NCBI GenBank assembly: GCA_016735295.1
Contig: JAERRU010000024.1
Coordinates: 1-52,959, forward strand
Length of the DNA stretch: 52,959 nt
Source of the DNA: SAR324 cluster bacterium
Lineage (GTDB): Bacteria; SAR324; XYD2-FULL-50-16; JAERRU01
Direction: 5' to 3'
The first letter of the stretch is position 1, and every line of letters begins with the position of its first letter. Made by a program: the position numbers and the translations under genes. This document shows, one piece after another, positions 1-52,959 of this stretch. Below the pieces are notes generated by a model, which did not search any database, was not told the DNA's origin, and saw nothing but the letters and a program-made list of their open reading frames with translations.

Positions 1-48
1 TTCGAAAAACATTACCCCACCAGCACCTAAAAAAATTATTGGTTATTT

Positions 49-382
49 GGGGCTAGTCAGAGGTCTATTTATCGGTAGAATTATCTTCTTGATAACCATC
101 TTTGCTAGTCCCTTCGGTGGTTGATAGTTTGGGGCTAGTCAGAGGTCTATTTATCGGTAGAATTATCTTCTTGATAGTCATCTTTGCTAGTCCCTTCGGT
201 GGTTGATAGTTTGGGGCTAGTCAGAGGTCTATTTATCGGTAGAATTAACTTCTTGATAGCCATCTTTGCTAGTCCCTTCGGCAGTTGATAGTTTTGAGAC
301 TAGTCAGAGGTCTATTTATCGGTAGAATTAACTTCTTGATAGCCATCTTTGCTAGTCCCTTCGGTGGTTGATAGTTTTTGGG
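49..382. repeat. Tandem array of about 82-83 bp units derived from the 3' end of rplI
   Basis: Four tandem units start at about 49, 131, 213 and 296. The matching segment of the rplI 3' end begins at about 379, so the spacings are 82, 82, 83 and 83 bp. On the minus strand each unit reads like the L9 tail, ending TDK-stop-TSD-stop where the gene has TDKSTSD-stop. Each unit also carries roughly 20 bp of downstream flank. The extra copies resemble each other more than they resemble the gene, and all have TAG in place of the TCA serine codon. There are no spacers between units. The array fills the whole spacer downstream of rplI. Confidence 0.9.
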
Positions 383-913
383 CTAGTCAGAAGTTGATTT
401 ATCGGTAGCATCCCCTTCCTGAGAGCTATTGTTAGTCTCTTCGGCAATCTCTTTTATCTCCTCTAAAGGAGTTTCTGGTATAATCTTTATGTTCAAGTTA
501 GCCGTAACTAAAGGATGTAATTTAATAATAACAACTTGCTCCCCGATTTTTCTTAGGTGAATTTCTTCTAGAGCATTTTTATTATTAATTGATATTTTCT
601 TTTCCTTAAGAGCGGCTAATATATGGCTAGTATTTACCGATCCGAAAAGATGACCTTCTTTATTGGTTTTTTCGGTAAATTCTAGCGTCATAGCGTTAAT
701 TTTTTCTGCTAAAGACTGGTAATCGGCCAATAATTTTTCCCGAGCCTCATCTAACTTTTTGCGTTGATGGGTCACCAATTTAATATTAGCACTATTGATG
801 CTAAACGCTTTATTTTTAGGAAGCAGGTAATTCCTGGCATAGCCTGGCTTTACCACAACTTCATCACCCAATAATCCAAGATTAGGCACATCTTCCCTTA
901 ATAATACTTTCAT
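383..913 (-). CDS. rplI: 50S ribosomal protein bL9
   Basis: Ribosomal protein L9 binds 23S rRNA near the L1 stalk and helps maintain reading frame. The N-terminal domain is clear (MKVLLREDVPNLGLLGDEV, then VKPGYARNYLLPKNKA), followed by the long connecting helix and the C-terminal domain ending near residue 147. Residues from about 148 form an extra acidic, Ser/Thr/Asp-rich tail ending in TDKSTSD, which makes the protein (176 aa) longer than the usual roughly 150 aa. It is the last gene of rpsF-rpsR-rplI and starts 18 bp after rpsR. The last 60 or so bases of the gene were the template for the tandem array just downstream. Confidence 0.97.
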   Translation of the reverse strand: MKVLLREDVPNLGLLGDEVVVKPGYARNYLLPKNKAFSINSANIKLVTHQRKKLDEAREKLLADYQSLAEKINAMTLEFTEKTNKEGHLFGSVNTSHILAALKEKKISINNKNALEEIHLRKIGEQVVIIKLHPLVTANLNIKIIPETPLEEIKEIAEETNNSSQEGDATDKSTSD

Positions 914-931
914 AATTTTTAACTCAGTTAG

Positions 932-1519
932 TTATAAATCTTCTTTAATTGGCTCAACGGTACTTTCTTTTACATCATCTTTATCTGAAGAATTTTCTTT
1001 CTCGCTGTCATCTTTTGCTAAAGATTCTTCAGATGATGGGAGAGATTCTTTTTCCTCAACGCTAGCGTCAATTTTCACTAAAGATTCCTCAGATGGTTTT
1101 GAAGAATCTTTTTTTTCAACGACAGCACTATCTTTTATTGAAGATTCCTCAGTTGATTGTGAAGAATCTTTTTTTTCATCATCAGCACTATCGGTTGGCT
1201 TGGTGACAAATTTCTTTGCATATTTTTCTTGCTGGCTAGCTAATTCCTCAGCCGCAGGATAATTTTGAATAAAAGACAATAAAGCTAAATTACGAGCCCT
1301 TTTAATCGCTAGCGATATCAAGGCTTGGTTGCGAGCATTAATGCTGTTAGCTCGCCCAGGCATAATCTTTCCCTTTTCAGTGGTGAAAAGGCTTAAGAGC
1401 TGGATATCTTTATGATCTATGTGGTCTAACTTAGCCGTTTCTATTGAACAAAACTTTTTTCTCGCCGCTAAAGTATAATTGCGACGACGACTATTCTTCC
1501 TCCTTCTTCTTTTTCCCAT
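932..1519 (-). CDS. rpsR: 30S ribosomal protein bS18 with long acidic repeat tail
   Basis: S18 pairs with S6 on the 30S platform. The conserved core lies at residues 24-88: DHIDHKDIQLLSLF, EKGKIMPGRA and AIKRARNLALLSF match the family. It is preceded by an Arg-rich N-terminus (GKRRRRKNSRRRN). The protein is 195 aa, whereas S18 is normally about 75-95 aa. Residues 110 to 195 are an added low-complexity acidic tail that contains three 20-residue repeats of the type DSA-EKKDSS-EES-K. The gene starts 2 bp after the rpsF stop. The tail is absent from the S18 proteins I know, so it is unlikely to be needed for assembly. Confidence 0.95.
   Translation of the reverse strand: MGKRRRRKNSRRRNYTLAARKKFCSIETAKLDHIDHKDIQLLSLFTTEKGKIMPGRANSINARNQALISLAIKRARNLALLSFIQNYPAAEELASQQEKYAKKFVTKPTDSADDEKKDSSQSTEESSIKDSAVVEKKDSSKPSEESLVKIDASVEEKESLPSSEESLAKDDSEKENSSDKDDVKESTVEPIKEDL
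1021..1200 (-). repeat. Three in-frame 60-bp tandem repeats inside rpsR
   Basis: Units begin at 1021, 1081 and 1141, each opening with aagattc on the plus strand. They encode residues 110-129, 130-149 and 150-169 of bS18. The 60-bp period is a multiple of three, so expansion lengthens the acidic tail without a frameshift. A fourth, eroded unit may follow at residues 170-185. Confidence 0.85.
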
Positions 1520-1521
1520 AA

Positions 1522-1896
1522 TTAGTTACCTTTTTTGCTATCTAGATATAAATTAACGTTAATTTTTGGATCTTCTGAAATTGTTTGTAAGAAAGTGATT
1601 TCTTTTTCTAAGTCATCACATTTTATAGGTAGGCTCCGCAAGACAAATTCATCAAAAGCGGCTTTATCTTTTAATAAGGCAAGAACAGTGCTTGGAGCAC
1701 TAAAATAGATGATATAATAGATGGCAAACTGTTTTTTATTTACTAAATAAGCCAACTTGCGGCGACCCCATAATTTGGAGCTAGTAACAGTTCCGCCATT
1801 TTCGGTGACAATTTCTTGGTATTTTTTAACGACGTCCGCGGCTTCTTCGTCGCTTAAAGAATTATCGATAATTAAAAAAAACTCGTATCCTTGCAT
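1522..1896 (-). CDS. rpsF: 30S ribosomal protein bS6
   Basis: S6 is the platform protein that forms a heterodimer with S18. The whole 124-residue protein fits the family: MQGYEFFLIIDNSLSDEE at the N-terminus, GGTVTSSKLWGRRKLAY in the middle, and a C-terminal half with FDEFVLRSLPIKCDD. No long tail is present, unlike its two operon partners. A good Shine-Dalgarno (AAGGAG) lies 5 nt upstream of ATG. It is the first gene of rpsF-rpsR-rplI. Confidence 0.97.
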   Translation of the reverse strand: MQGYEFFLIIDNSLSDEEAADVVKKYQEIVTENGGTVTSSKLWGRRKLAYLVNKKQFAIYYIIYFSAPSTVLALLKDKAAFDEFVLRSLPIKCDDLEKEITFLQTISEDPKINVNLYLDSKKGN

Positions 1897-1910
1897 AAAA
1901 CTCCTTGTGG

Positions 1911-1935
1911 ATAAAAGCCCATTAAATAAAGGGCT
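1911..1935 (-). terminator. Short GC hairpin between ychF and rpsF
   Basis: The minus strand reads AGCCC, a 10-nt AT-rich loop, GGGCT, then TTTTAT. It could end ychF transcripts or form part of the rpsF leader, where S6:S18 autoregulation occurs in other bacteria. The stem is only 5 bp and I do not see the CCG bulge of the known S6:S18 leader. Confidence 0.35.
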
Positions 1936-1989
1936 AAGGGTTAAAAATTAATAATAAATATCTAAAACTTAAAGTTATAAATGCCTAAC

Positions 1990-3072
1990 TCAAGCTTGGA
2001 ATCTAATATGTACTATATCTCCATCTTTAATTCTATAGTTTTTTCCTTCAATTCTAATTTTTCCGAGATTTTTTAAGGCCAACTCATTTTTTTGCTGGGC
2101 AATATCGGCGTAATTATAAACTTCACCTCTAATAAAACCTTTTTGCATATCAGAATGTATTTTGCCTGCTGCTTCGGGCAGAGGGGCATCTTTTCGCACA
2201 TTCCACGCTCGAACTTCTTTTTCTCCTGCCGTAAAAAATGTGATCTGATTTATAATTTTAAAAGATTCTCTAATTACTAACCTTAATGCTGAAAAAGGTA
2301 AAGATAATTCTTTTAAGAATAGGCTCCGATCGGCGTCATTTAAATCAGAAATCTCTTCTTCTAGCTTAGCCGAGATTTTAATAGCTTCAATATTTTGTTT
2401 TTTAGCATATTGGATAACTTTTTGGGCCAGTAAATTATCTTCATCATTACCGTCTCCAACATTTAGCACAAAAAATAATGGTTTGGCGGTTAATAAAGAA
2501 AGCTCAGCCATGAGTTCAATTAATTTTACATCATCAAGATAATCATAATTAATAGCCAGCTTTCCCTCGTTTAAATGATCATCAAGACCAGCCAAAAAGG
2601 CAATTATTTCTTTTTCGCCGTGATTCTTTTTTTCTCTTTTTAAATGACGATTAACCGTTTCTAAATCGGCTAAAATAAGCTCAGTATGAATAATATCTAT
2701 GTCTCGAATGGGATCTATGTCGTCTTCAACATGAATAATATCATCATTACGAAAACAGCGAACCACTTCTAGCAGGGCGTCTACTTGGCGAATATTATCT
2801 AAAAATTTATTACCCAACCCGGCTCCTTGTGACGCTCCCTTAACTAAGCCAGCAATATCAACCACTTCCACCACATTAGGGATAATTTTTTCTGTAGTAA
2901 ATATTTTTGCCAAAGCTTGCAGCCTTTCATCTGGTACCTTAGCGATACCAACATTAGGCTCAATGGTGCAAAAGGGATAATTAGCCATCTCAATTGGCTG
3001 GGAGGTGATCGCCTTAAATAAAGTGGATTTACCAACATTGGGCAAGCCAATAATACCTATATTTAATCCCAT
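1990..3072 (-). CDS. ychF: Redox-regulated ATPase YchF (OLA1 family)
   Basis: YchF is a ribosome-associated P-loop ATPase of the TRAFAC/Obg class that prefers ATP and is linked to stress and translation. Visible features are the P-loop GLPNVGKST (residues 9-17), the switch region NYPFCTIEPNVG, the DIAGLVKGAS motif (G3, lacking the usual Gln as in the whole family), and a C-terminal TGS-like domain around IHSDMQKGFIRGEV. At 360 aa it has the normal length. It starts 3 bp after the pth stop, so the two are co-transcribed, as in many alphaproteobacteria. Confidence 0.97.
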   Translation of the reverse strand: MGLNIGIIGLPNVGKSTLFKAITSQPIEMANYPFCTIEPNVGIAKVPDERLQALAKIFTTEKIIPNVVEVVDIAGLVKGASQGAGLGNKFLDNIRQVDALLEVVRCFRNDDIIHVEDDIDPIRDIDIIHTELILADLETVNRHLKREKKNHGEKEIIAFLAGLDDHLNEGKLAINYDYLDDVKLIELMAELSLLTAKPLFFVLNVGDGNDEDNLLAQKVIQYAKKQNIEAIKISAKLEEEISDLNDADRSLFLKELSLPFSALRLVIRESFKIINQITFFTAGEKEVRAWNVRKDAPLPEAAGKIHSDMQKGFIRGEVYNYADIAQQKNELALKNLGKIRIEGKNYRIKDGDIVHIRFQA

Positions 3073-3075
3073 AGT

Positions 3076-3633
3076 TTACGTAAAGACAGGGGGAACTTGT
3101 AGCGTCCGATCTTCAATAAAATCAGACAATAAATCGTTGGTCATATCTAATAAAGGGGCTAAAGAGACCCTATGTTCGGGGTGTATTGGTGATAAAACTT
3201 GTTTTGCCGGAGCCAAATTGCCCGCTCGGCCAATGCCAATCTTTAATCTTTGAAAGTCACCTCCTTTTAGGTGAGAAATTATATCACGTAAGCCGTTATG
3301 GCCGCCGTGCCCCCCATTTTGACGATATCTAATTTTACCAAAAGGCAAGTCTAAATCGTCGTGCACTACTAGCAATTGATTAAGCTCGCAAGTAAAAAAA
3401 TTTAGTGCCTTAGCAACCGCAACCCCACTAAGATTCATAAAAGTCATCGGTTTAAATAGGCCAAAAGAATGATTATTCAATCTTCCTTGCCAGAAATCTC
3501 CCGAAAATTTATGTTTACCCTTATCATCATCAAGCAGACTAGCTGCTAAATGATCAATCGCCATAAAGCCGATGTTATGATAGGTCTGGCTATAATTTTT
3601 ACCAGGATTACCTAGGCCTACGAGCAATTTCAT
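3076..3633 (-). CDS. pth: Peptidyl-tRNA hydrolase
   Basis: Pth releases tRNA from peptidyl-tRNA that drops off the ribosome. The N-terminus MKLLVGLGNPGKNYSQTYHN includes the catalytic His after the conserved Asn-rich start. GLFKPMTFMNLSG, VVHDDLDLPFGKIR and GGHGGHNGLRDI are all intact family motifs. The frame is open back to 3678, but the homologous start is the ATG at 3633 (185 aa); the upstream 15 codons look like translated spacer. It sits between rplY and ychF in the usual stress/translation cluster. Confidence 0.96.
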   Translation of the reverse strand: MKLLVGLGNPGKNYSQTYHNIGFMAIDHLAASLLDDDKGKHKFSGDFWQGRLNNHSFGLFKPMTFMNLSGVAVAKALNFFTCELNQLLVVHDDLDLPFGKIRYRQNGGHGGHNGLRDIISHLKGGDFQRLKIGIGRAGNLAPAKQVLSPIHPEHRVSLAPLLDMTNDLLSDFIEDRTLQVPPVFT

Positions 3634-3702
3634 TTTAAAATAAAAAATGATAATCTTTTTCAAAAACCAACCAGCCAATAAAGCAAGATATAATATAAAA
3701 AA

Positions 3703-5089: not shown

Positions 5090-5147
5090 CAAGTAGTTAT
5101 AAAAATCAAGTAAACGGAAAAAGATAGATTAAAGAAGATAAATATAG

Positions 5148-8163: not shown

Positions 8164-8166
8164 TAG

Positions 8167-17926: not shown

Positions 17927-17979
17927 ATTAACTTTACGTTAAATTCAATTTTCAATGATTTTTAGTGATTTTAGTACCA

Positions 17980-18017
17980 GCTAGGCGGAGTTCCTTTTTA
18001 AATATCGGCCAATCATA
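17980..18017 (-). repeat. Partial copy of the fpr 3' end
   Basis: A 38-bp segment downstream of fpr matches 18067-18104 inside the gene with two differences, an offset of 87 bp. On the minus strand both read YDWPIFKKELRLAG; the copy then diverges and lacks the RWNIEVY-stop. It is a two-copy instance of the gene-end duplication seen elsewhere in the window. Confidence 0.85.
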
Positions 18018-18038
18018 GATAACCTAACAAGCGGATGG

Positions 18039-18938
18039 TTAATAAACCTCAATATTCCACCGCCCGGCTAAGCGGAGTTCCTTTTTAAATATTGGCCAAT
18101 CATAACCTAGCTCGGTGGTAATTTTTTCAAATAGATCGCTTATCGATTCTTCCATACCCTTTAGGCCACAAACATAAACAGCGAAATTTTTATTAGCAAT
18201 TATCGATTTAATAGCCTCATAGTCTGATAGCATTTTATCGGCCACATAAAGACGTGAGCCTGATTGATTTTTCTCTTCTCGAGACAAAGCTAAATTAAGA
18301 TTAAAGCCAGCTTTTTGGCAAAGATCAATTAATTCTTGATTATAAGAATTGCAATATAAAGCTTCTTTTTGTCGTTTGAATCCTAGATACAAAAAGCCCT
18401 TACCTAGCCATTTAGATGGGCTTTGGCTGATGTGTTGCAAAAATCCCCGAAAGGGAGCTACTCCGGTGCCGGTGCCAATTAAGATAAGATCAACTTGATT
18501 GCTAGCGGGTAAAAGCATAATTCTCCCAGTAGCGTTAATAATAGGAATTTTATCGCCCTTTTTGCTGTTACACAGAAAATCAGAACAGGTGCCAAAAACA
18601 TCTTTTTGGTCGCTATCTTGGTAAACAAGCCGTTTGACGCTCAAAGAAAGGCTAAGCAGGCCTTCATTATCCCCATCTCTAGCAGAAGATATGCTATAAA
18701 GGCGTGCTTTTAATTTTCGACCATCATCTCTTTGACCTGGTGGGATAACTCCAATTGATTGCCCCTCTAAATAGGTTATGCCACTATTTTTTATGTCTAG
18801 GGTTATATGAAAAGTTTGATCGGCACTATCAACTTTTGATAGCTCATAATGCTGAGTGACAGTTGCTAGGTAAGGATTTTTGATTTTATAAGAAGCACCT
18901 TTTGTGGGTACCAATTTATCTAATTTAGGGATAGACAT
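18039..18938 (-). CDS. Plant-type ferredoxin-NADP+ reductase
   Basis: FAD enzyme exchanging electrons between NADPH and ferredoxin or flavodoxin. It looks like a plastidic/cyanobacterial-class FNR, not the usual bacterial Fpr. Matching segments are YKIKNPYLATV, YLEGQSIGVIPPG, the FAD site RLYSISS, CSDFLCNSKKGD, the NADP site GTGTGVAPFRGFL, the segment YVCGLKGMEESI, and the C-terminal RWNIEVY. In this class the final Tyr stacks on the flavin. At 299 aa it is close to a mature plant FNR and has no transit peptide. It follows the 7TM-HD gene by 52 bp and may be in the same transcript. Confidence 0.9.
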   Translation of the reverse strand: MSIPKLDKLVPTKGASYKIKNPYLATVTQHYELSKVDSADQTFHITLDIKNSGITYLEGQSIGVIPPGQRDDGRKLKARLYSISSARDGDNEGLLSLSLSVKRLVYQDSDQKDVFGTCSDFLCNSKKGDKIPIINATGRIMLLPASNQVDLILIGTGTGVAPFRGFLQHISQSPSKWLGKGFLYLGFKRQKEALYCNSYNQELIDLCQKAGFNLNLALSREEKNQSGSRLYVADKMLSDYEAIKSIIANKNFAVYVCGLKGMEESISDLFEKITTELGYDWPIFKKELRLAGRWNIEVY

Positions 18939-30760: not shown

Positions 30761-32125
30761 TTATTTGCCCGATTTAACTCCTAAAAGAATATATAAACTA
30801 GATGTTATGACAATCATAGCCAACAAAAAACTATAGTTATTAAAACGTAATCCAATCAAGCTAGCTACGATTAATAAAGCATATAAAACTATTTTTATTG
30901 CCTTAGGTAATGTTTTCATTAATGTTCGGCCAATGTGAATATAAGGTAAATGAGAAATCATTAATAACCCACTAAAACAAGCTACCCCAGCGGCAAACCA
31001 ATCTACCCACCAAACTGATTGTTGGCAATCTTTGACGAAAATAAAACAATAGTCATTGAGTAAAGATAAAGTAGAGCCCACAAATAAAGCGGCTGCTGGA
31101 GAGGGAAGCCCATTAAAAATTTCTACCCCTGTCGGTGTGTTGGCTTTCTTTTTATCTCCGATAAATCGGTAAAGTCGAAAAATTGTGCAAATAAAATAAA
31201 AAATGGCACTAAATCCCGCTAACCATTTGTTATGAATTGCCCCATAGGCTAAAAAAGATACTGCTAGCCCAAAATTTGCTCCATCGGCTAAATCATCAAG
31301 TATTTCTCCTCTTGCCGTGCTGCCCCAGTGGGCTGCTGCTCGTCCATCTAGTAAATCTAAAAATTGACCGAGAAAAATTAAAAAGAATGTGTAGGTTAAG
31401 GGATATCCCATTAACACAAGTGCAATGCCCAGCAACCCACAACAAAGGTTGAGAAGACTTAAAATATTAGCGTACCAATAGTTAGGTATTATTCTAAATA
31501 CAATGCTGCAAAGAGCCAAACCTATTACCCCTAACAGCAAAAAAGTTCCTATATCAAGTAGTTGTTGGTCAAGATAAGTTTGTTGTAAAAAAACCAACAT
31601 CAAGGTGGCGGTGCATAGCAGTGTTTTGGTTTTGCCAAATAGATTAGCCCCCTTTACTTTAAAAAGACTACGGGTGAATTGACCAGTAAAATCAATTATC
31701 AAAAATATCAACGCTAATCTTATATCAAGGGCCTTAAATTGAAATGCGGCGTAAAGCAGTGGCGGAAAGTAAAGCAATTTATCTGATAAAGGATCAATTA
31801 TTTCCCCTAGCGTAGAGCGTTTTTTTAAATATATAGCCAGTGAGCCATCGGTTATATCCGTAATCATCCAAAAGCTAAAAAAATATAAAGCGAATACTTC
31901 ATTACCATAATGATAAATCAGCACACTAACTATCCCCATTATATAACGAGATCGGCTGATGTTGTTGGGCTCAAGCCACCATATTTGGGCGAGTTTTTTT
32001 TGCAGTGGGGGGCTATGGGACAATCTAAAAATAAATAGCCTTTCTGCTAAAAAGGTAAGGGATACGGGAATCACAGAATAGATAACCATTTCCAGTAAAG
32101 GCATATAATTCAAACCAAGCACCAT
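30761..32125 (-). CDS. Two-headed CDP-alcohol phosphatidyltransferase
   Basis: Polytopic membrane protein with two complete CDP-OH-P transferase domains in one chain. Domain 1 (about residues 45-185) carries DITDGSLA-x9-G-EII-D-PLS-D. Domain 2 (about 215-350) carries DLLDGRAA-x9-G-EIL-D-DLA-D. Both fit D-x2-DG-x2-A-x9-G-x3-D-x3-D, the catalytic motif using CDP-diacylglycerol. Domain 1 may act like PgsA and domain 2 like PssA or a phosphatidylcholine synthase; this assignment is inference. The ATG at 32125 overlaps the lptB stop as TGATG; a TTG one codon upstream (32128) is also possible. 454 aa from this ATG. Confidence 0.85.
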   Translation of the reverse strand: MVLGLNYMPLLEMVIYSVIPVSLTFLAERLFIFRLSHSPPLQKKLAQIWWLEPNNISRSRYIMGIVSVLIYHYGNEVFALYFFSFWMITDITDGSLAIYLKKRSTLGEIIDPLSDKLLYFPPLLYAAFQFKALDIRLALIFLIIDFTGQFTRSLFKVKGANLFGKTKTLLCTATLMLVFLQQTYLDQQLLDIGTFLLLGVIGLALCSIVFRIIPNYWYANILSLLNLCCGLLGIALVLMGYPLTYTFFLIFLGQFLDLLDGRAAAHWGSTARGEILDDLADGANFGLAVSFLAYGAIHNKWLAGFSAIFYFICTIFRLYRFIGDKKKANTPTGVEIFNGLPSPAAALFVGSTLSLLNDYCFIFVKDCQQSVWWVDWFAAGVACFSGLLMISHLPYIHIGRTLMKTLPKAIKIVLYALLIVASLIGLRFNNYSFLLAMIVITSSLYILLGVKSGK

Positions 32126-32853
32126 CAAAACTTAAATTTTTCTCCAAAATACACCTGTCTTGCCAAGTCGCTATTAATGATAACCTCAGGAGAGCCACTT
32201 AATAAAACCTTACCCTTATTGATGATATGGGCGTGATGGGTGATGTTGAGTGTTTCTCTTATATTATGATCATTAATTAAGATGCCGATATTTTGAGTGG
32301 AGAGGCGTTGTATGATTTCTTGAATGTCGCCCACAACTAAAGGGTCAACTCCGGCAAAGGGCTCATCAAGCAGTAAAAACTTGGGATTAGAGGCTAAGCA
32401 GCGAGCGATTTCTACTCGCCTTCTTTCTCCTCCAGATAGGGCGTAGCCGTAGCTTTTCCTGATGTGAGTTACTTCTAGCGATTCTAAAAGCTCATCAAGG
32501 CGCTCTTTTTTAGCACTTCGCTTCATTTTTTGTACTTCTAAGATAGCCAAAATATTATCTTCCACAGTTAATTTGCGAAAAATACAATTTTCTTGTGGTA
32601 AATAGCCAATGCCTAGCTGTGCCCGCTGGTACATAGCAAGGTTGGTTATTTCTGAATCATCTAGAAGAATTTGCCCCTGATCAGGGTTAATAAAACCAAC
32701 AGCCATATAAAAAATAGTAGTTTTGCCCGCACCATTAGAGCCTAACAGGCCAACAATGCTGCCTTGTGTCAACGAAAAAGACACCTGATCAACAACCGTT
32801 CTCCCATCATAAGATTTGACTATATTCTTGACACGTAAAACTTGTTTATGCAT
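32125..32853 (-). CDS. lptB: LPS export ABC transporter ATP-binding protein LptB
   Basis: Cytoplasmic ATPase driving LPS transport through LptFGC. Walker A GSNGAGKTT (residues 38-46), the LptB-specific segment GIGYLPQENCIFRKLTVEDNI, signature LSGGERRRVEIARCL, Walker B LLLDEPFAGVDPL and the switch His in LINDHNIRETL are all present. The 242-aa length is normal. It implies an outer membrane with LPS. Its first 13-16 codons and start region have been tandemly copied twice just upstream. It overlaps the phosphatidyltransferase gene at TGATG. Confidence 0.96.
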   Translation of the reverse strand: MHKQVLRVKNIVKSYDGRTVVDQVSFSLTQGSIVGLLGSNGAGKTTIFYMAVGFINPDQGQILLDDSEITNLAMYQRAQLGIGYLPQENCIFRKLTVEDNILAILEVQKMKRSAKKERLDELLESLEVTHIRKSYGYALSGGERRRVEIARCLASNPKFLLLDEPFAGVDPLVVGDIQEIIQRLSTQNIGILINDHNIRETLNITHHAHIINKGKVLLSGSPEVIINSDLARQVYFGEKFKF

Positions 32854-32938
32854 TTAAGACTAAACGAATAATTTTAAGGTTATAGCCATCGCTATAGGCC
32901 ACAACCATATTTTTAATGTCCAAGATTTGTCTATCCAT
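32846..32938 (-). other. Mini-ORF 2 of the lptB leader, 30 codons
   Basis: It begins with the copied lptB start (MDRQILDIKNMV) and ends in LVLNA-TAA. The stop lies over the lptB start in the arrangement AATGCATAA, so translation of this ORF would deliver ribosomes to lptB. Whether it is translated is unknown; it may be an accidental by-product of the duplication. Confidence 0.3.
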
Positions 32939-33026
32939 TCAAAACTAAATAAATGGCTTTAAGATTACAGCAATCATCGCTATAGGCCATAACTATATTT
33001 TTAATGTCCAAGATTTGTCTATCCAT
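32931..33026 (-). other. Mini-ORF 1 of the lptB leader, 31 codons
   Basis: It begins with the second copied start (MDRQILDIKNIV) and ends in LVLNG-TAG. Its stop overlaps the start of mini-ORF 2 as AATGGATAG, the same geometry as between mini-ORF 2 and lptB. Translation is not established. Confidence 0.3.
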
Positions 33027-33137
33027 TCAAAACTAAATAAATGACTTTAAGATTAGAACAATCATCGCTATAGGCCATAACTATCATTATAGACCATAAG
33101 TTATGCTTAATATATGCGTCATCTATCATGCCACATT

Positions 33138-34361
33138 TCATTTTTGCAATTCTTGCAATTTTTCGTTAACTTTGTCCATAAATTCGGTGGTGGTTAGGTA
33201 ATGGCTTCGTTCAACTTTTTTATGAATGCAAGACGCTAAATCCTTAGTCATAAATCCACCTTCTACTGATTGAACGCAAGCTTGCTCAAGGTTGTTGGCA
33301 AATTTTAGTAGCTCTGGGTGGTTGTCAAACTTAGCCCGGTAGGCCAGCCCTCGAGACCAAGCAAAAATACTAGCAATTGGATTAGTGCTAGTTTCTTCGC
33401 CTCTTTGGTGGGCTCGGTAGTGCCTAGTTACTGTGCCATGAGCGGCTTCTGATTCTACCACATTTCCATCGGGTGATAATAAAACAGATGTCATTAATCC
33501 TAAAGAGCCAAACCCTTGGGCTAGCACGTCTGATTCCACATCGCCATCATAATTTTTGCACGCCCAAAGAAAGCCTCCCTCTACTTTAAGAACAAAAGCC
33601 ACCATATCATCAATTAAACGATGTTCATAGGTAATGCCTGCTTTTTCAAAATCTGTCTTAAATTCAGCGGCGAAGACTTCTTGAAAAATATCTTTAAATC
33701 GGCCATCGTAGGCCTTTAAGATGGTATTTTTTGTGGAGAAATATAGAGGATATTTTTTGTCTAAGGCAAACTTCATGCAAGCTCTAGCGAAAGCAGTTAT
33801 AGAGTCATCTAAATTAAACATACTTAAGGACACTCCTCCGCCTTGGGTTTTTATTACTTTTCTTTCGATCACCTCATCGCCGTCATCAGAACGATAATTT
33901 ATGGTTAGGGTGCCGGGTTTTTTAAACACAAAGTCGGTAGCAGCGTATTGATCACCAAAGCCGTGCCGGCCAATTATGATAGATTTTTCCCAACGCGAAA
34001 TTAGGCGAGGTACATTTTTACATATGATGGGTTCGCGAAAAATCGTTCCTCCGATTAAATTTCTAATGGTTCCGTTTGGGCTGCGCCACATTTTTTTTAA
34101 ATTAAATTCTTTCACCCTAGCTTCGTCAGGAGTGATAGTGGCACATTTCACAGCCACTCTGTGTTTAATGGTGCTTTTAGCGGCGTCGATAGTTATTTTA
34201 TCATCAGTTTTATCGCGTGACTCCATGCTAAGATCGAAATATTTTAAGTCTAGGTCAAGATAGGGGAAAATTAATTGTTCTTTAATTTTACTCCACATTA
34301 TGCGAGTCATTTCATCGCCGTCCATTTCTACGATAGGATTTTTAACAGTTATTTTTTTCAT
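33138..34361 (-). CDS. icd: NADP-dependent isocitrate dehydrogenase (eukaryote-like class)
   Basis: TCA-cycle enzyme converting isocitrate to 2-oxoglutarate with NADP+. The N-terminus [17 protein letters not shown], the substrate-binding [37 protein letters not shown], the metal-site segment [11 protein letters not shown]-like ([19 protein letters not shown]) and [12 protein letters not shown] are as in mitochondrial and alphaproteobacterial IDH. Complete at 407 aa. Aconitase lies about 11 kb away. Confidence 0.97.
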
Positions 34362-43959: not shown

Positions 43960-44577
43960 ATGAAATGTTGTGAACGTCCGTTAGTAGTTGATTTAGACCG
44001 CACTCTTATTACAGAAGATAGCTTTTGGAGCGATACAAAATTTTTAATTAAGCACCAAGCACTAGGTTTTTGTTATGAGGGGATAAAGATATTATTTTTT
44101 CATAAAGGCAAGGGGCGTTGGCCCTTCTTAAAATCACGAGTTGCTTTTTTAAGTGGAGAAATAGATTATAAGATAAATCCTGAGTTTTTTAAATTTTTGC
44201 AAAGCGAGCATAAGCAACGAAAGTGCTGGTTATTCACAGGATCGGCGGCGCAAAATGCATTCTACATTTCTCAAAAACATCAATATTTCAGTAAAATTCT
44301 AGCCAGCACTAATAAAACAATCATGAGCGCTAGCCAAAAGCTCATTTGGCTTAGGGAGAATAAAATTAATGAATTTGATTATGCGGGCGACAAGCTGGGA
44401 GATTTTATAATTTTCAAAAAATCGGCTATCTGTTATGTGGTTAATCCTAGTCTAGCATTATTGCTTAGGTTGTTATTAGCAAGTAAATTTAAGATAAAGT
44501 TTTTTGATGTGGCAATAAATCTAAAGTGGCTATCTCATTTGGTGATCAGGCGGCACAGCAAAATTAAGGAGCATTAA
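43960..44577 (+). CDS. HAD-superfamily phosphatase (UbiA-associated HAD type)
   Basis: The motifs of a HAD hydrolase are present: motif I VVDLDRTL (DxDxT), motif II Ser in LFTGSAAQ, a basic residue in the middle, and motif IV YAGDKLGD. LVVDLDRTLITEDSFW resembles the HAD domain that in some proteobacteria is fused in front of a UbiA prenyltransferase; here the membrane part is missing and the 205-aa protein ends in a short hydrophobic and basic tail. The substrate is unknown. Its stop overlaps the convergent folA stop by 4 bp. Confidence 0.75.
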   Translation: MKCCERPLVVDLDRTLITEDSFWSDTKFLIKHQALGFCYEGIKILFFHKGKGRWPFLKSRVAFLSGEIDYKINPEFFKFLQSEHKQRKCWLFTGSAAQNAFYISQKHQYFSKILASTNKTIMSASQKLIWLRENKINEFDYAGDKLGDFIIFKKSAICYVVNPSLALLLRLLLASKFKIKFFDVAINLKWLSHLVIRRHSKIKEH

Positions 44578-45053
44578 TCTTTTTTTCGGGTAAGTATTTT
44601 AAATACATACTTAGGCACAGAGTCAATTTTTTTTTCTTCTTGAAGATCAAAACGAGTAGTGTCGATTTCAGAAAAAAAGCGGTCGACATCAAATTTATCT
44701 TGCACCTCACTTATATAAAGTTTTTTTACCCAAGGCAAAAAAATTCGATAAATGCTAGCACCACCAATTACCAATAATTCTTGGTCACTATCATCATAGG
44801 TTTCTATTATTTGTTGGCAGTCATTAATCACTTTTACCCCTGGTAAAGAGTAATCTTTTTGCCTAGTCAAAACAATGTTAGTCCTGTCAGGTAGTGGTTT
44901 TCCGATGGATTGATAGGTTTTATTGCCCATTAATATTGCTTTACCTAAAGTAATTTTTTTAAATCTTTTTAGGTCATCGGGGATGTGCCACGGCAACTTA
45001 TTTTTATAACCTATCCCGCGCTCTAAATCATGAGCTACTATAAGTGAAATCAT
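44574..45053 (-). CDS. folA: Dihydrofolate reductase
   Basis: Reduces dihydrofolate with NADPH. The N-terminus MISLIVAHDLERGIGYKNKLPWHIPDDLKRFK includes the conserved Trp and Asp of the active site. GKAILMGNKTYQSIGKPLPDR, NIVLTRQ and VIGGASIYRIFLP complete the family motifs. 159 aa, normal length. The start overlaps the acnA stop (TAATG), so it is coupled to aconitase. Confidence 0.96.
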   Translation of the reverse strand: MISLIVAHDLERGIGYKNKLPWHIPDDLKRFKKITLGKAILMGNKTYQSIGKPLPDRTNIVLTRQKDYSLPGVKVINDCQQIIETYDDSDQELLVIGGASIYRIFLPWVKKLYISEVQDKFDVDRFFSEIDTTRFDLQEEKKIDSVPKYVFKILTRKKD

Positions 45054-47743
45054 TAAGATTTAATAGCCGGCGTTGATTTTTCCATTATCTCCTTAAGAAC
45101 TGTGTGCAAAATGCCCCCGTTGCGGTAATAATCTATTTCAATTTCTGTATCTAGCCGGCATAGAACCTTAATTTTTCTATCATCAATCGTTAAATCCAAA
45201 CGAGATTGAGGCAACATACCATCATGCAAGCCAGTAATACTAAATAACTCTTCACCACTTATTTTTAAACTAGAACTATCATCTCCTGGTAAAAATTGCA
45301 AAGGCAAAACTCCCATACCAATTAAATTTGAGCGATGAATTCTTTCAAAACTAACCGCAATTACCGCCTTAACCCCTAATAGGTAAGGCCCCTTGGCTGC
45401 CCAATCTCGAGATGAGCCTGAGCCATATTCAGCCCCCGCTAACACTATACTAGGCACGTTATTTTTTTTATATTCTTGAGCGACCTCAAAAATTGTACTA
45501 ATTTTTCCATTAGGAAATAATTTGGTAAACCCTCCCTCAGTGCCAGGAGCTAGCTGGTTTCTGATTCTTATATTAGCAAAGGTGCCCCGCTCCATAATTT
45601 TATCATTACCCCGCCTAGATCCATAGGTATTAAAATCATCTGGCATTACTTTTTTGGTGATTAGATATTGACCAGCCGGAGAAATTTCACCAAAAATACC
45701 AGCAGGAGAAATGTGATCAGTAGTCACAGAATCGCCTAATTTTAACAGAGCACGGGCATTTTTAATATCATTAAGCCCAGCAGATTTATCTTTGATATGA
45801 GAGAAAAATGGAGGATTTTGAATGTAGGTAGACTTTTCATCCCATTGAAAAATTTTATCAGATTTACCTTTAAGATTAGTCCAACGATCGCTAATACCAA
45901 GCACAGTCTTATATCTTTTAATATAAAAATCAGGCAAAACATTTTTTTCAGCCAAGGCGATATCACTATCAGATGGCCATATATCTTTAAGAAACACGTC
46001 TTGCCCCTGTTGATCTTGCCCCAGCGGATCTTTGCTTACATCTATATTCATAGAGCCCGCAATAGCGTAAGCAATCACTAAAGGAGGGCTAGCCAAAAAA
46101 TTAGCCTTGGTATCTCCATGAATCCGACCCTCAAAATTTCGATTTCCTGATAACACAGAACAAACAACTAAATCCTTATCTTTAATCGCAGCAGAAATTT
46201 GAGGCATTAAAGGGCCAGAATTTCCAATACAAGTGGTGCAGCCATAGCCGACGGTATTAAAACCTAGAATATCTAAATATTTTTGTAAATCTGCCTCAGC
46301 TAAATAATCGGTAACCACCCTAGAGCCAGGAGCCAAAGAAGTTTTAACCCATGGTTTAGTTTTAAGACCTAATTTGACCGCCTTTTTAGCCAGCAAGCCA
46401 GCGGTTAACATTAAAGCAGGGTTGCTAGTATTAGTGCAAGAAGTAATAGCAGCAATAACTACCGAGCCATGGTGTAAAATGTCGCCACTACCTTTTATCT
46501 GGCTCTGGTCTGCTAAAGACGAATCAGCCAATCCAAACCCACGATCTTTTACTGGCACAGTTAAATTAGTTGACCAAGCCTGCTTAGCATCTGTTAAATC
46601 AATTCTATCTTGCGGTCTCTTAGGCCCAGCAATTGAAGGCACAAGCGTTGATAAATCAAGTTCTAGCATATCAGAAAAAATAGGATCTTTAGTGGTAGAA
46701 TCTCTGAAAATGCCGAGCGCTTTATAATAGGCCTTAGTTCGCTCAATTGAGTCAGCAGAGCGCCCAGTGCTGGCTAGATATCTGAGAGTCTCATTATCAA
46801 CTGGGAAATATCCCATAGTCGCCCCATACTCAGGAGACATATTAGCAATAGTAGCCCTATCAGCCAAGGAAAGGCTATCTAGCCCTGACCCAAAAAATTC
46901 TACAAACTTCTCCACCACCCCCTTAGCTCTAAGCATTTGAGTTACTCGCAGAACTAAATCAGTAGCCGTTATCCCAGCACTAGCCTTATTAATCAATTTA
47001 AAACCTACCACCTCAGGTATCTTCATATATATAGGCTGCCCCAGCATCACAGACTCTGCCTCAATCCCGCCTACTCCCCAACCTAACACCCCTAATCCAT
47101 TAATCATGGTTGTGTGTGAATCGGTGCCAACCAAGGTATCGGGAAAGGTGACCCCATCTAATGAATGAGAAACTGGCGATAAATATTCTAAATTAACTTG
47201 GTGAATTATTCCCGCACCTGGAGGGAAAACACGTAAATTATCAAATGAATTTTGCCCCCATTTTAAAAATTCATAACGTTCTCTATTACGCTTAAATTCA
47301 GTGGCCATATTATCGGCTAAAGCGTTATTAGTGCCATAGCTATCAACTTGTATTGAGTGGTCAATAATAAGATCAACTGGCACTCTAGGATTTATTTCAT
47401 CTGGAGAGAATCCATTTTCTTGTAGAGCAGTTCTGAGTGAGGCCAAATCAACCAAGCTGGGCACGCCAGTAAAATCTTGCAACACAACCCTAGTGGGCAT
47501 GAAGGGGATTTCATCTTCCGAGATTTTATTTTTCTGCCAGCTGGCTAAATTAGTGATGTCTTTTGAGCGAAATTTTTTCCCATCATAATTGCGTAGCACC
47601 TGCTCTAATAAAACTATAATTGAAAAGGGAACTGATTTAATCCCCGGAAAGCCCATTTCAGCTAATTTACGGGGGTTATAGATGGTTGATTGATGCGAGC
47701 CGTGAGTTATCGTTTCTTGAGATTGCTTTACTATATCTTTCAT
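45053..47743 (-). CDS. acnA: Aconitate hydratase A
   Basis: Converts citrate to isocitrate. The 896-aa AcnA/IRP-type layout is complete. Cluster cysteines are in AAITSCTNTSNP (about residue 434) and GYGCTTCIGNSG (about 500-503). VGTDSHTTMINGLGVLGWGVGG and the C-terminal swivel domain with EYGSGSSRDWAAKGPYLLGVKAV are intact. With icd it covers the first oxidative part of the TCA cycle. Overlaps folA by one base. The upstream spacer is filled by a tandem repeat. Confidence 0.97.
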   Translation of the reverse strand: MKDIVKQSQETITHGSHQSTIYNPRKLAEMGFPGIKSVPFSIIVLLEQVLRNYDGKKFRSKDITNLASWQKNKISEDEIPFMPTRVVLQDFTGVPSLVDLASLRTALQENGFSPDEINPRVPVDLIIDHSIQVDSYGTNNALADNMATEFKRNRERYEFLKWGQNSFDNLRVFPPGAGIIHQVNLEYLSPVSHSLDGVTFPDTLVGTDSHTTMINGLGVLGWGVGGIEAESVMLGQPIYMKIPEVVGFKLINKASAGITATDLVLRVTQMLRAKGVVEKFVEFFGSGLDSLSLADRATIANMSPEYGATMGYFPVDNETLRYLASTGRSADSIERTKAYYKALGIFRDSTTKDPIFSDMLELDLSTLVPSIAGPKRPQDRIDLTDAKQAWSTNLTVPVKDRGFGLADSSLADQSQIKGSGDILHHGSVVIAAITSCTNTSNPALMLTAGLLAKKAVKLGLKTKPWVKTSLAPGSRVVTDYLAEADLQKYLDILGFNTVGYGCTTCIGNSGPLMPQISAAIKDKDLVVCSVLSGNRNFEGRIHGDTKANFLASPPLVIAYAIAGSMNIDVSKDPLGQDQQGQDVFLKDIWPSDSDIALAEKNVLPDFYIKRYKTVLGISDRWTNLKGKSDKIFQWDEKSTYIQNPPFFSHIKDKSAGLNDIKNARALLKLGDSVTTDHISPAGIFGEISPAGQYLITKKVMPDDFNTYGSRRGNDKIMERGTFANIRIRNQLAPGTEGGFTKLFPNGKISTIFEVAQEYKKNNVPSIVLAGAEYGSGSSRDWAAKGPYLLGVKAVIAVSFERIHRSNLIGMGVLPLQFLPGDDSSSLKISGEELFSITGLHDGMLPQSRLDLTIDDRKIKVLCRLDTEIEIDYYRNGGILHTVLKEIMEKSTPAIKS

Positions 47744-47794
47744 AGGAGAACCTTTTTGAGTTGTGATGGTTTACTTATTTATAAAATAACAATT

Positions 47795-48082
47795 TTTTTC
47801 CTTTCTTTTTGATTTTATTACTATTGAAAAACGCTAGCCACATTTTAACTCGTCAATAACAAGAAAAGCCCTTTGATGATATTTTTTTACTTTTTGATTA
47901 TATCATATTAAAAGTGTTATCTACCTTCTAGTTCGGCCATGCCAAGCCCTTTGATTAATATCTTTTTTCCTTTTTGATTCTATCACTATTGACAAATATT
48001 AGCCATCTTTTAACTCGTCAATAACAAGCAAAGCTCTTTGATGATATTTTTTCCTTTTATATTCTATCACTATTGATAGATA
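47795..48082 (-). repeat. Tandem copies of the PPTase gene 3' end (82-84 bp units)
   Basis: The stop codon of the PPTase gene (48083) has counterparts at 47999, 47917 and 47834, spacings of 84, 82 and 83 bp. The gene ends AELKCG-stop; the copies read DELKDG-stop, AELEGR-stop and DELKCG-stop. Copies 1 and 3 are the most alike. Each unit includes about 53 bp of coding end plus about 30 bp of T-rich flank. They occupy nearly the whole acnA upstream spacer, where the acnA promoter must lie. Confidence 0.88.
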
Positions 48083-48853
48083 TTAGCCACACTTTAATTC
48101 GGCGATACCAGATAAAACCCCTCGATTAATATTATTTGGCCAAAATTTTTGGGCGATCACTAGCTCAAACTCTCTATCTGCTGCTACCGCGAGCATGTAT
48201 ATATCTTTTTTCTTATCTGAGTTTGGGGTAATAGTAAATTTTAGATTTAAAAAGTGGCTATGAGTCTTTCTTAGCACAAAATCTTGCAAAATAAAAGATG
48301 GGACTTGCTTTATCTGCCAGACAGAACGAGAATTTTTTTTTAAATAGGCCTCCTTTAGCGTCCATATGCGGTAAAAATATGTTACTGAAAAATTTGTTCT
48401 TTCCCAATTTATAAACTCTGCAGAGCTAAAATAACGACGAGCAATCCTTTTTAAAAAAATACGGGGCACCACCCTTTCTAAATCAAACCCTACCGCAAAA
48501 TCAGCTAAAGCGCAGCCCACCAAATCATTAGAATGAGAAATATTAAAACTGATAACTCTATTGGCCATTAAATCTTTTGCTTCCTTGATGAATCTGCAGC
48601 TAGGGCGTCTTTTTAAATCAAGACCCATTTTAACTGATCGCCAAGGCAAATTAAATTTTTGGCAAATGAGATGCTTAGCTAAAGTGCGTCCTGCTACGAT
48701 CTCAGAGCGTCTTTTTTTTGTCTGCTTAGCCAATAAAGCCAGATCTGGCTTAGAAAAATCGTCTAATATATTGTGAAAATTAGAGTTAGGCAATAATGCC
48801 CGCTCACCAACATCAACAAGCCCAATGGTTAACGACGCTCCAAAGTGATCCAA
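48083..48853 (-). CDS. 4'-phosphopantetheinyl transferase (Sfp/EntD/AcpT type)
   Basis: Transfers phosphopantetheine from CoA to a Ser of carrier proteins. RRSEIVAGRTLAKHL, the CoA/Mg site ISFNISHSNDLVGCAL and VGFDLERV, and FYRIWTLKEAYLKK are the expected motifs. At 256 aa it is the two-subdomain Sfp type, not the short AcpS. The target is unknown and no carrier protein, NRPS or PKS lies in the window. The last 18 codons served as the source of the downstream repeat array. Confidence 0.88.
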   Translation of the reverse strand: MDHFGASLTIGLVDVGERALLPNSNFHNILDDFSKPDLALLAKQTKKRRSEIVAGRTLAKHLICQKFNLPWRSVKMGLDLKRRPSCRFIKEAKDLMANRVISFNISHSNDLVGCALADFAVGFDLERVVPRIFLKRIARRYFSSAEFINWERTNFSVTYFYRIWTLKEAYLKKNSRSVWQIKQVPSFILQDFVLRKTHSHFLNLKFTITPNSDKKKDIYMLAVAADREFELVIAQKFWPNNINRGVLSGIAELKCG

Positions 48854-48942
48854 AGAATATCCTTAAATGATAACCTAATTTAGGCTAAGGTTTATTTGCA
48901 GAAAATCTAAGCTATTAAAATATATTAAAATCTATTAAAAAT

Positions 48943-49449: not shown

Positions 49450-49628
49450 AATTATTCTAAATTTGTTATTATCAATACCGTCATTTTTAATTCAAAACAC
49501 CTTGAACGCTAGAGATAGTTAGCCTCCTTGTCAATTTAAAAATCATCCAAAGAGGTGCCACCTAGCTTATTATACTAAGAGAACATGTTTAAATAAAGAT
49601 ATTTAATTAGTACCTATAATTGATGTTA

Positions 49629-51032
49629 CTAGTATTGATCAAAAAATTGCTTAACTGTTCGCCCCGATGGTTGATTATGCTGGTTTTGCAAACAAAAACG
49701 CTTAAAGCTATTTATGGTCTTATCAGCATTGGCTAGCTTTATGTGATGTTTTTTTGCATATTTTAACAAGAAAGCATCAAGTTTTTTAAATCTAGGAGCT
49801 TCAAAATAGAGTTTAAGCCCAAATCGATCATCAAGAGAGCAAAATTCATCAATTATTTGATTTTTCTCACTATCATATTCATCGATTATACCACCATCCC
49901 TAATAAGCCCTTTTCGATTAGAAGTTACATGGAGCAAGGCATTATTGGTGGTGATTATTCCGCCATCTAGAGTGGATTTTAGTAATTTTATGTTAGACTC
50001 TTCTTTACTTAAGCTTAAGTCGTCACAAAATATAATAAATTTTTCTGGCCTAAGCTTTAAAAATGCGAAAAGAGACGGTAAAAATTGCAATTGGGAAGGC
50101 AATAGATTGATTAATTTTAAATTCCTATCTTTAAAATGATTAAGTAAGGCAAAAATTGATGAAGATTTGCCCATCCCAGGCTCACCCCAAAGGAAAACAT
50201 GAAAGGCCTCTTTTTGAGTGAAAAGATTTTCTATATTTTCAATAAGCCTATCTTGATTTAATTGATTATCTATCAAGTAATCAAAACTTTTAAGTGACCC
50301 AACTGACATTTTTATTAACCTCAAAGGCTCAAAATTACTAAGCTCAAAGGCGTTATATTGAGCCAGTAAGCCCCCGCTTGATGTTTGCCAGAACTTAACC
50401 CACGGCGAGGTAGTAAATAAAGACGATAACTTTATTTTGTTAGATGCCCATTTACTAAGACTATTTTTAGGATTAACTTTGCCAATTGATGAAAAATCAC
50501 CACTAATAGACTCACCTTTCTCAATTAACTTAATATTACCCATACCTAACCATAAATCTTGCCAGATATCTTGGGGATTATTTTGCCAAAGGTGCTTAAA
50601 AAAATTTAACCGTGGGCCTAAAATAGTTTTTTTGATCAGTGAATCTGCAGTTAAAGAGGGATGCCAAAATTTATCACTCATGCGGTAAAGTAAAAATGCC
50701 TGCCAATTATTTAACCCTTTAGGAATTAAATAATTATCGCTTTGCTGGGTGAAAACCAGACAAAAGCTATTCCACTGGCTAATAACGCCATTTTCACTAC
50801 GCCAATTTTCATATATTAGTTGGTTGATGCTTTTTGATGCGTCGTTAGGCTGCTGGCGAAGAAATACTATTTTAAAACACAATTCTTCTAATGCACTAAG
50901 CAAGTTAGCCCAAGCTAATAACACCTTTTCCGATTTATGCCACTCTCCTCCTCCACTTTTTTGATAAGAATCAAGTAAATCAGAAATTAAATAGGCCTTT
51001 TGTTTAAGAATATTATCCTTAGCGAGAACCAA
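49629..51032 (-). CDS. DUF815 family AAA-type ATPase
   Basis: The C-terminal half (about residues 240-467) is a DUF815 P-loop domain: Walker A LWGEPGMGKSS, Walker B FIIFCDDLSLSKEE, sensor-like HVTSNRKGLI, EFCSLDDRFGLKLYFEAP and a final PSGRTVKQFFDQY. The N-terminal 240 residues contain a weakly conserved helical region, as is usual in bacterial DUF815 proteins. The function of the family is unknown. The start at 51032 is the first ATG of the frame. Confidence 0.85.
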   Translation of the reverse strand: MVLAKDNILKQKAYLISDLLDSYQKSGGGEWHKSEKVLLAWANLLSALEELCFKIVFLRQQPNDASKSINQLIYENWRSENGVISQWNSFCLVFTQQSDNYLIPKGLNNWQAFLLYRMSDKFWHPSLTADSLIKKTILGPRLNFFKHLWQNNPQDIWQDLWLGMGNIKLIEKGESISGDFSSIGKVNPKNSLSKWASNKIKLSSLFTTSPWVKFWQTSSGGLLAQYNAFELSNFEPLRLIKMSVGSLKSFDYLIDNQLNQDRLIENIENLFTQKEAFHVFLWGEPGMGKSSSIFALLNHFKDRNLKLINLLPSQLQFLPSLFAFLKLRPEKFIIFCDDLSLSKEESNIKLLKSTLDGGIITTNNALLHVTSNRKGLIRDGGIIDEYDSEKNQIIDEFCSLDDRFGLKLYFEAPRFKKLDAFLLKYAKKHHIKLANADKTINSFKRFCLQNQHNQPSGRTVKQFFDQY

Positions 51033-51125
51033 TTATTTATTTTGTTAATAGGGAATTAAAAGATCACCGAAAAGGTTAAAATCAGCCCTCAAATAAAGCT
51101 AAATTTTTCGGCACCAATAATTAAA

Positions 51126-51671
51126 CTAAATCTCTATCCCAAATTCATCGGTTATTTGTGATATTAGCAAAGAATCTAATTCTAAGCCATAATAGCTTAT
51201 TGTAGCAGAGACAATATTTCTAAAAGATTTTTTTAAAGCCAAACTAGATCGAGAATTAACTGACCTTAACCGACCTTTAAGTCTTAATAGCACCGTTTGG
51301 CGTAACTTACCCTTCACCCGATTAATGAGTGTGGGAGAAACTTCACTTAAATGAGTTTCTATTTCAGCTTGATTTTTCCCGCTAGCAGAAAGCCTTAGCC
51401 AAGTAGTAAATAGGTTTCTGGGCAAAAGCTTCACCTTATTACTTATTTCAGGAGTTTCTTTTACAGCATCTAGTGACGTTCCTATTTTTAAGGAAAGGGC
51501 ATCTAAAGCTGGTTCATCATCAAAAGAAGTAAAGGGGGTAGCAGAAGGCAGAGCATCTAATAAATTTTCTTGGTCATTTTCAGAGCCAGGCAAATTAATC
51601 GGCTGGGCATAGCCGATTAAACTAGTTGATACACTGATTGCTAGTATAAAATAAAAAATTAATCTATTCAC
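51126..51671 (-). CDS. Hypothetical exported protein
   Basis: I do not recognise this 181-aa protein. It has a signal peptide (residues 1-22, LIFYFILAISVSTSLIGYAQ) with likely cleavage after AQ and no lipobox. An acidic linker follows (to about residue 60), then a basic, helical region (RLSASGKNQAEIETHLSEV, VKGKLRQTVLLRLKGRL). No catalytic motif is evident. It lies between the DUF815 gene and the EamA transporter, each with its own spacer. A periplasmic structural or regulatory role is possible. Confidence 0.6.
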   Translation of the reverse strand: MNRLIFYFILAISVSTSLIGYAQPINLPGSENDQENLLDALPSATPFTSFDDEPALDALSLKIGTSLDAVKETPEISNKVKLLPRNLFTTWLRLSASGKNQAEIETHLSEVSPTLINRVKGKLRQTVLLRLKGRLRSVNSRSSLALKKSFRNIVSATISYYGLELDSLLISQITDEFGIEI

Positions 51672-51797
51672 AAATCATTAAAGCTATTTTCAGATAAAAT
51701 ATGGCTTTCTATAGATATATTCGCTATATTTACTTCGGCAAAAAGAGGGCGTAACTTAAATATTTTACTTCAAAGATATAATAGCCGTGAATTGATG

Positions 51798-52700
51798 CTA
51801 TCTAGCCTTAATTAGTAACAATTGCGAGATGATACCAGAAACGACTATTAAAGAACCACCGATCATTGCTCCAAAGGTCATAATTTCTTCTAACCAGAGC
51901 CAACCAAAAATAGCGGCAAAAATGCTTTCTGTGCTAAACAAAATAGCGGCGTGCTTGGGGTTAGCCTTAGCTAAGGCTAATATCTGCAGAAAATTAGCGA
52001 TAAATGCTGATATTACTCCAGCATATACAATATCTTGCCAAGCTAAGTTCAAATTAGCCATTCCCCACTGTTCTGGGCTAACTAAAAACACCAAAAATGA
52101 TAAACCAGAACAAAGCAACGATTGCCAAATAATAAGTGCTAGTAACCAGTTAAACGATTGATTTTTGCCGAATTTTCGCGACATAATCATATGCAAGGCC
52201 CAGCAAATAGCACTAATGAGCAATAGAGCGTCTCCTAGGTAATTATCAAAGGAAAGAGATTTAACTCCGTTTATTAATAATAAACCAACTAATGCTAAAA
52301 GAGTAAGCATCCAATGGCTAATAGAGGTCTTGGTGCCCCTGCCGATAAGTAAGATTGGTACTATTATCACATAGGTGGCAGTAATAAATCCAGCGTTAGC
52401 AATTGATGTGTGAATAACCCCAACTTGCTGGGTTAAAGCACCTAAGAAAAAAACTATCCCTAACAGAAAACCGCCTTGACGGATATTCTTGCTCCATAAA
52501 AAAGACATATTACCCTTATTGGCGAGTAAAAATATCAGTAAAGCAAATATGCCAGAAACCAAAAATCGCCAAAAAATAAATTGAAAAGGGCCTAAGTAAA
52601 GCATAGCATGCTTTTGAAAGCTAAAGCCCATCCCCCAAAGTATGGCGGTTAAAAGAATTAATCCATCAGATATTAAATGGCTTTGACGGCTTCTTGTCAT
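51798..52700 (-). CDS. EamA/DMT-family transporter
   Basis: Ten predicted transmembrane helices arranged as two EamA repeats of about 140 aa. The first begins ILWGMGFSFQKHAMLYLGPFQFIFWRF-like and the second GDALLLISAICWALHMIMSRKFG. The end of repeat 2, HAAILFSTESIFAAIFGWLWLEE, is the family hallmark. Substrate unknown; such proteins export amino acids or metabolites or import nucleotides and SAM in intracellular bacteria. Complete at 300 aa. Confidence 0.88.
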   Translation of the reverse strand: MTRSRQSHLISDGLILLTAILWGMGFSFQKHAMLYLGPFQFIFWRFLVSGIFALLIFLLANKGNMSFLWSKNIRQGGFLLGIVFFLGALTQQVGVIHTSIANAGFITATYVIIVPILLIGRGTKTSISHWMLTLLALVGLLLINGVKSLSFDNYLGDALLLISAICWALHMIMSRKFGKNQSFNWLLALIIWQSLLCSGLSFLVFLVSPEQWGMANLNLAWQDIVYAGVISAFIANFLQILALAKANPKHAAILFSTESIFAAIFGWLWLEEIMTFGAMIGGSLIVVSGIISQLLLIKAR

Positions 52701-52764
52701 ATAGAGGTTAAAATGGTTTTTTATTAAAATAATAAATTAAAAAATATGAAATACTAATCACCCT

Positions 52765-52959
52765 CATAGGGATAATTAGTCTAGTATCAAATAGATAATG
52801 AAATAGCTAAACTTATTTAAGATATGTTTTAATGGATGAATTAGCCAAACCAAATAGGGATAATTAGCCTAGTATCAAATAGGTAATGAAATAGCTAAAT
52901 TTATTTAAGATATGTTTTAATGGATGAATTAGCCAAACCAAATAGGGATAATTAGCCTA
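52765..52959. repeat. Tandem 88-bp repeat at the right edge
   Basis: Units begin at about 52771, 52859 and 52947, a period of 88 bp, and the array runs off the window. The units are about 95 percent alike by eye. One frame (plus) contains ATGGATGAATTAGCC and ends in TAG 12 codons later in each unit. By analogy with the other arrays the source may be the end of the next gene to the right, but that gene is not visible. Confidence 0.85.

Follow-up and report, generated by a model that had tools for sequence, protein, structure and literature searches.

Several intergenic spacers in the genome of this SAR324 bacterium are filled with tandem repeats whose units are nearly constant in length and unrelated in sequence from one place to the next. 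They were noticed in the window, i.e., the whole stretch of 52,959 nt analyzed, which is contig C2 of the assembly, and they raise the question of what sets the size of duplications that copy a different sequence at each site.

For the genome-wide part of the analysis, 1.247 Mb of unmasked sequence was taken in stretches, corresponding to about 82% of the assembly (1.52 Mb, 42 contigs, 89.9% complete). Five short contigs reading N throughout (C7, C9, C24, C38, and C41; stretches L009, L011, L026, L040, and L043) were left out. Some arrays had been counted twice, being cut at contig ends or at stretch boundaries; with these duplicates removed, the set comprises 62 independent non-coding arrays.

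Tandem arrays in the window

All five arrays listed by a first-pass annotation of the window were found by direct scans, with periods of 82–88 bp; none of them was assigned a strand. The array at 46–429 has spacings of 82, 82, 83, and 83 bp, and its last and oldest copy (80% identity) overlaps the 3′ end of rplI (383–913, minus strand) by 47 bp. The same array also joins contig C28, with which 117 bp are held in common. The array at 17977–18104 is truncated and consists of two copies with a period of 87 bp: a 41-bp block recurs at 87 bp with 93% identity, and 66 bp of the 3′ end of fpr (ferredoxin-NADP reductase; 18039–18938, minus strand) are overlapped.

The array at 32802–33091 (spacings 85, 88, and 88 bp) is built from units derived from the start of lptB (32125–32853, minus strand) and takes up the spacer as far as the gene for isocitrate dehydrogenase (33138–34361, minus strand). 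Its oldest copy (61–63%) contains the first 52 bp of lptB; gene starts were set by the longest open frames, which makes overlaps with a 5′ end less secure than those with a 3′ end. The other copies can still be read as the start of lptB at the protein level (MHKQVLRVKNIVKSY in the gene, MDRQILDIKNMVVAY in a copy).

Between the aconitase gene (45053–47743) and the PPTase gene (48083–48853), whose 3′ end points toward the array, four copies of 82–84 bp occupy positions 47802–48136. Compared with the first copy, the later ones show 67%, 87%, and 72% identity. Variants alternate, with the best match at 165 bp, and the last copy reaches 54 bp into the 3′ end of the PPTase gene. The array at 52766–52959, with a period of 88 bp and copies 97% identical, is cut by the contig end, and its unit recurs at the end of contig C3 (L005:7369–7511). 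A coding end was thus contained in the array at four loci, as the annotation had stated; by the present scans it measures 47–66 bp.

Other genes of the window were recorded alongside. Ribosomal protein S18 (932–1519, minus strand) has 195 aa, with the S18 domain at residues 32–81 followed by a long C-terminal extension in which a 20-aa repeat recurs about three times in degenerate form (period 60 bp, 1007–1192), and the neighboring L9 gene encodes a tail of about 30 residues past the L9 domain. The open frame at 43960–44577 (plus strand) encodes 205 aa with coding-like composition and matched no Pfam family.

Unit length and unit sequence across the genome

In the 1.247 Mb, Tandem Repeats Finder placed the period peak near 83 bp, and so did a lag scan run independently of it. 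After dimers were resolved, the unit measured 74–91 bp in 39 of the 62 independent non-coding arrays (mean 83.0, sd 3.7). The other size classes were sparsely filled, with one array at 45–73 bp, three at 92–109 bp, two at 110–145 bp, five at 146–180 bp, and eight above 180 bp; five arrays of period 151–175 bp were dimers of a 75–88-bp unit. A period of 42–44 bp, about half of 83 bp, was noted in four non-coding arrays, besides the five genuine arrays at 147–158 bp (L013, L036, L008, L082, and others for both groups); these may be separate size classes.

Simulated two-copy arrays of 50–70 bp were detected in 97–100% of cases at 5–10% divergence, so limited detection does not account for the gap below 74 bp. 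When the same 1.26 Mb was shuffled with an order-3 Markov model, no more than five clusters appeared; all of them had lag 30, and their number equals that of the fully masked contigs. The peak near 85 bp that had been predicted genome-wide was therefore found, the narrow unit length first described for the window extends to the whole genome, and the tandem-array observation is confirmed as a real property of that genome.

The arrays coincide with breaks in the assembly: of 63 contig ends inspected, 18 have an array no more than 150 bp away, against 2.6% expected. Units were common to the contig ends C2–C28 (window positions 1–117), C2–C3 (window positions 52766–52959 and L005), C4–C16 (L006/L018), C14–C37 (L016/L039), C15–C33 (L017/L035), and C15–C10 (L076/L012); these pairs are probably neighbors split inside an array. 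Arrays thus limit the assembly, and their number and length are underestimated. The same breaks, together with the potential loss of long near-identical units, could be taken to mean that the arrays, or at least their size window, were made by the assembly. This is extremely unlikely, as the copies have diverged (mostly 80–99% identical, old copies down to 61–70%), the periods vary between loci, arrays of 97–387 bp were assembled too, and the gap at 45–73 bp falls in a range that would be easy to assemble and detect.

Comparison of units across arrays showed matches between contig-end partners and between parts of one array cut by a stretch boundary, plus a single weak match of 57 bp. Each unit, matching only its own array or the split half of it, is therefore local DNA, and the description of the units as unrelated between loci holds genome-wide, that one weak match apart. 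The G+C content of the units, 32% and intermediate between intergenic (26%) and coding DNA (36%), is what gene-end plus spacer sequence would be expected to give. Rickettsia palindromic elements and mycobacterial MIRU-VNTR are likewise short repeats of tens of bases, MIRU lying in spacers, but they have a consensus common to their loci. No such consensus was found here; a dispersed repeat family of the RPE, MIRU, or REP type is ruled out, and the first-pass annotation had correctly set the repeats apart from dispersed elements.

The constant length and the location in spacers would also suit units that are selected functional elements, such as RNA or protein-binding repeats, with a length set by function. 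No sequence is common to the units, however, and no excess folding was found, the folding z being −0.38 for arrays and −0.25 for control spacers. Rfam matched no family in the window and only two tRNAs in eight further stretches. Selected elements are accordingly a very unlikely source of the arrays, and a structured RNA or tRNA-like unit was rejected on the Rfam results. Duplication driven by hairpin slippage was also rejected on the ordinary folding values.

Arrays inside genes form a separate class. Their period was divisible by three in 12/12 cases, compared with 29/77 of the other arrays.

Placement relative to genes

Intergenic spacers are short in this genome, which is 89% coding, with a median spacer length of 54 bp. 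Only a duplication that falls entirely within a gene disrupts that gene, and a random harmless duplication of 84 bp consequently hits a gene end in about 70% of cases. This neutral expectation (about 0.70, or 0.68 within the arrays' own spacers) was obtained with random 84-bp segments that were merely barred from lying strictly inside a gene. A gene end was spanned by 16 of 30 arrays, which is not above neutral, and targeting of gene ends need not be invoked. The length of overlap with the gene was consistent with a uniform distribution (KS p = 0.50), indicating no register to the stop codon.

The first-pass annotation had read the units as copied from the end of the neighboring gene by a process with a fixed footprint. 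A genome-wide process with a narrow unit length and unrelated units was supported; the preference for gene ends did not stand, as neither enrichment nor register was observed. The apparent copying of gene ends is an outcome of short spacers plus purifying selection.

The type of spacer was not neutral. Convergent spacers were over-used (18/46, 10% expected, p = 2e-7) and divergent, promoter-bearing spacers were under-used (4/46, 22% expected, p = 0.03), while co-directional spacers also hold arrays. The simplest reading of this bias is selection against duplications upstream of genes; transcription collisions may add to it.

The excess in convergent spacers, together with the overlap of a gene end by four of the five window arrays, could be put down to a process directed at gene ends, as the annotation had proposed, or at terminators, for instance where transcription collides. 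Such targeting is considered quite unlikely: it is opposed by the neutral comparison and the missing stop-codon register, by the arrays in co-directional spacers and the lptB unit, which spans a gene start, and by the orientation bias, which is explained by selection against disturbed promoters.

Origin of the arrays and comparison with known systems

Local tandem duplications about 83 bp long (74–91 bp), each copying whatever sequence was present, have arisen independently dozens of times in this genome, and nearly all surviving arrays lie in non-coding DNA. Many arrays have grown to 3–10 copies. Copy numbers tend toward integers, 18 of 27 arrays being close to one (p = 4e-7). In 15 of 27, the array end deviates by at most 8 bp from a whole multiple of the unit, compared with about 20% expected for random ends. 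Arrays ending at whole units imply that the founding events had little flanking homology. Neighboring copies were slightly more similar to each other (identity 0.906) than distant ones (0.879), and no boundary motif survived multiple testing.

The reading we favor, with a probability of roughly 0.55, is that replication slips or switches template locally by a preferred step of about 83 nt, and that the resulting duplications then expand in whole units and are filtered by purifying selection. In the founding event, slippage or template switching would take place at a replication fork or a single-strand gap, and the nascent end would re-engage approximately one fixed step (about 83 nt) back, little homology being needed. 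Later changes in copy number would proceed in whole units, through slippage or unequal exchange. A duplication would survive if it did not lie strictly inside a gene, which would make straddling of a gene end frequent, and if it left promoters undisturbed, which would favor convergent spacers.

Classical slippage occurs between flanking direct repeats and gives a broad range of sizes. In contrast, the arrays described here show short flanking homology and a narrow size. It is a loosely held guess that the step of about 83 nt might be set by the DNA that a replication protein holds or wraps. The footprint of E. coli SSB is about 30–70 nt (PMC4652220), on its face too short to give 83 by itself.

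RecA, MutS, RecJ, SSB, and a full-length PolA with its 5′ nuclease (flap-nuclease) domain are all encoded in the assembly, and simple loss of these proteins is thus not the cause. On the same grounds, loss of repair was rejected with RecA, MutS, and RecJ present, and failed flap processing with PolA full length and its 5′ nuclease domain retained. The recA gene itself is split by a contig break, with its main part at the start of C32 (L034; C32:29–988) and its first fragment at the end of C35 (C35:62871–62954).

In yeast rad27 cells, small tandem duplications arise from unprocessed flaps. Duplications of this kind, and those formed by fill-in at break ends in animal cells (PMC8355091), resemble the present ones in being small (tens of bases) and needing little homology. 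By analogy, an activity with a fixed footprint might make nicks, staggered or paired, at a distance of about 83 bp; fill-in and rejoining would then copy exactly the DNA in between with no homology required, resembling a target-site duplication of great length. The narrow size with its sharp lower limit and the whole-unit arrays without flanking homology would fit such nicking. No boundary motif and no candidate enzyme were found, however, nor was a Ku gene detected in the assembly, an argument against end joining as far as 90% completeness allows; unlike in the flap-derived case, PolA retains its 5′ nuclease domain. Paired nicking is therefore regarded as unlikely.

The 0.8 Mb sampled from nine relatives, seven of the same order and two of the same class, contained no array of 74–91 bp and only one non-coding array of any period, whereas the density here is 56 non-coding clusters per Mb. 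Likewise, 109 diverse control loci (0.98 Mb) contained four non-coding arrays, none of them near 83 bp. The arrays of about 83 bp are specific to this lineage as far as order- and class-level relatives were sampled.

Plasticity of intergenic tandem repeats in the tick-borne pathogen Ehrlichia ruminantium was reportedly described by Collins (2005) and Frutos (2006). According to two other sources (PMC6547736, PMC10710844), that organism resembles the present one in its many unrelated non-coding arrays, a genome of about 1.5 Mb, a preferred unit length, and the growth of spacers by whole units. Tandem units of 150 bp are added to or removed from its non-coding DNA (PMC6547736), and the mechanisms of its genomic plasticity are given as an open question in PMC10710844. 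Independent and mostly non-coding arrays are numerous here too (62, with the 12 in-gene arrays set apart). In contrast, units of about 150 bp do not prevail: the peak is at 83 bp, and only five genuine arrays fall at 147–158 bp. E. ruminantium is of an unrelated lineage and about 64% coding, compared with 89% for the SAR324 genome. Change in copy number between strains is shown for E. ruminantium, whereas the likeness drawn here is based on one genome of its family. Contig breaks at arrays are only suggestive of active copy-number change. By analogy, the process of about 83 bp appears to be like, and not identical to, the process of about 150 bp in E. ruminantium, the closest known case.

Borg repeats are likewise independent, lineage-specific arrays in genes and spacers, with in-gene units divisible by three and spacer units not (PMC9879509). 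Borg units, however, are perfect copies, A-rich, often flanked by partial repeats, and located in ORFs in about half of cases (PMC9879509). Here, by comparison, copies have diverged, arrays lie mostly in spacers, one unit length dominates, and 15/27 arrays end at whole units.

That two unrelated bacteria each have a sharp unit length of their own (83 bp here, about 150 bp in E. ruminantium) is a hint that the machinery of the lineage, rather than the local sequence, sets the size of new duplications, and what sets this length becomes addressable by comparing the two lineages. A stronger version, possible although doubtful, is that a lineage enzyme or nucleoprotein acts as a molecular ruler, measuring about 83 bp and duplicating it in many places with no need for sequence or homology; it would be a lasting source of spacer growth, and E. 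ruminantium would have an independent ruler of about 150 bp. The arrays show a route by which intergenic DNA can be regrown time and again in a reduced genome, and they explain where short-read assemblies of such genomes break.

The genome is small and AT-rich (34.7% G+C), compared with 2.7–7.8 Mb and 41–57% G+C in relatives of the order. An ATP/ADP carrier, a possible sign of intracellular life, had no match here, and none in any control genome either. Small, low-GC SAR324 symbionts are known from a glass sponge (PMC7426153), and this SAR324 bacterium may likewise lead a host-associated life.
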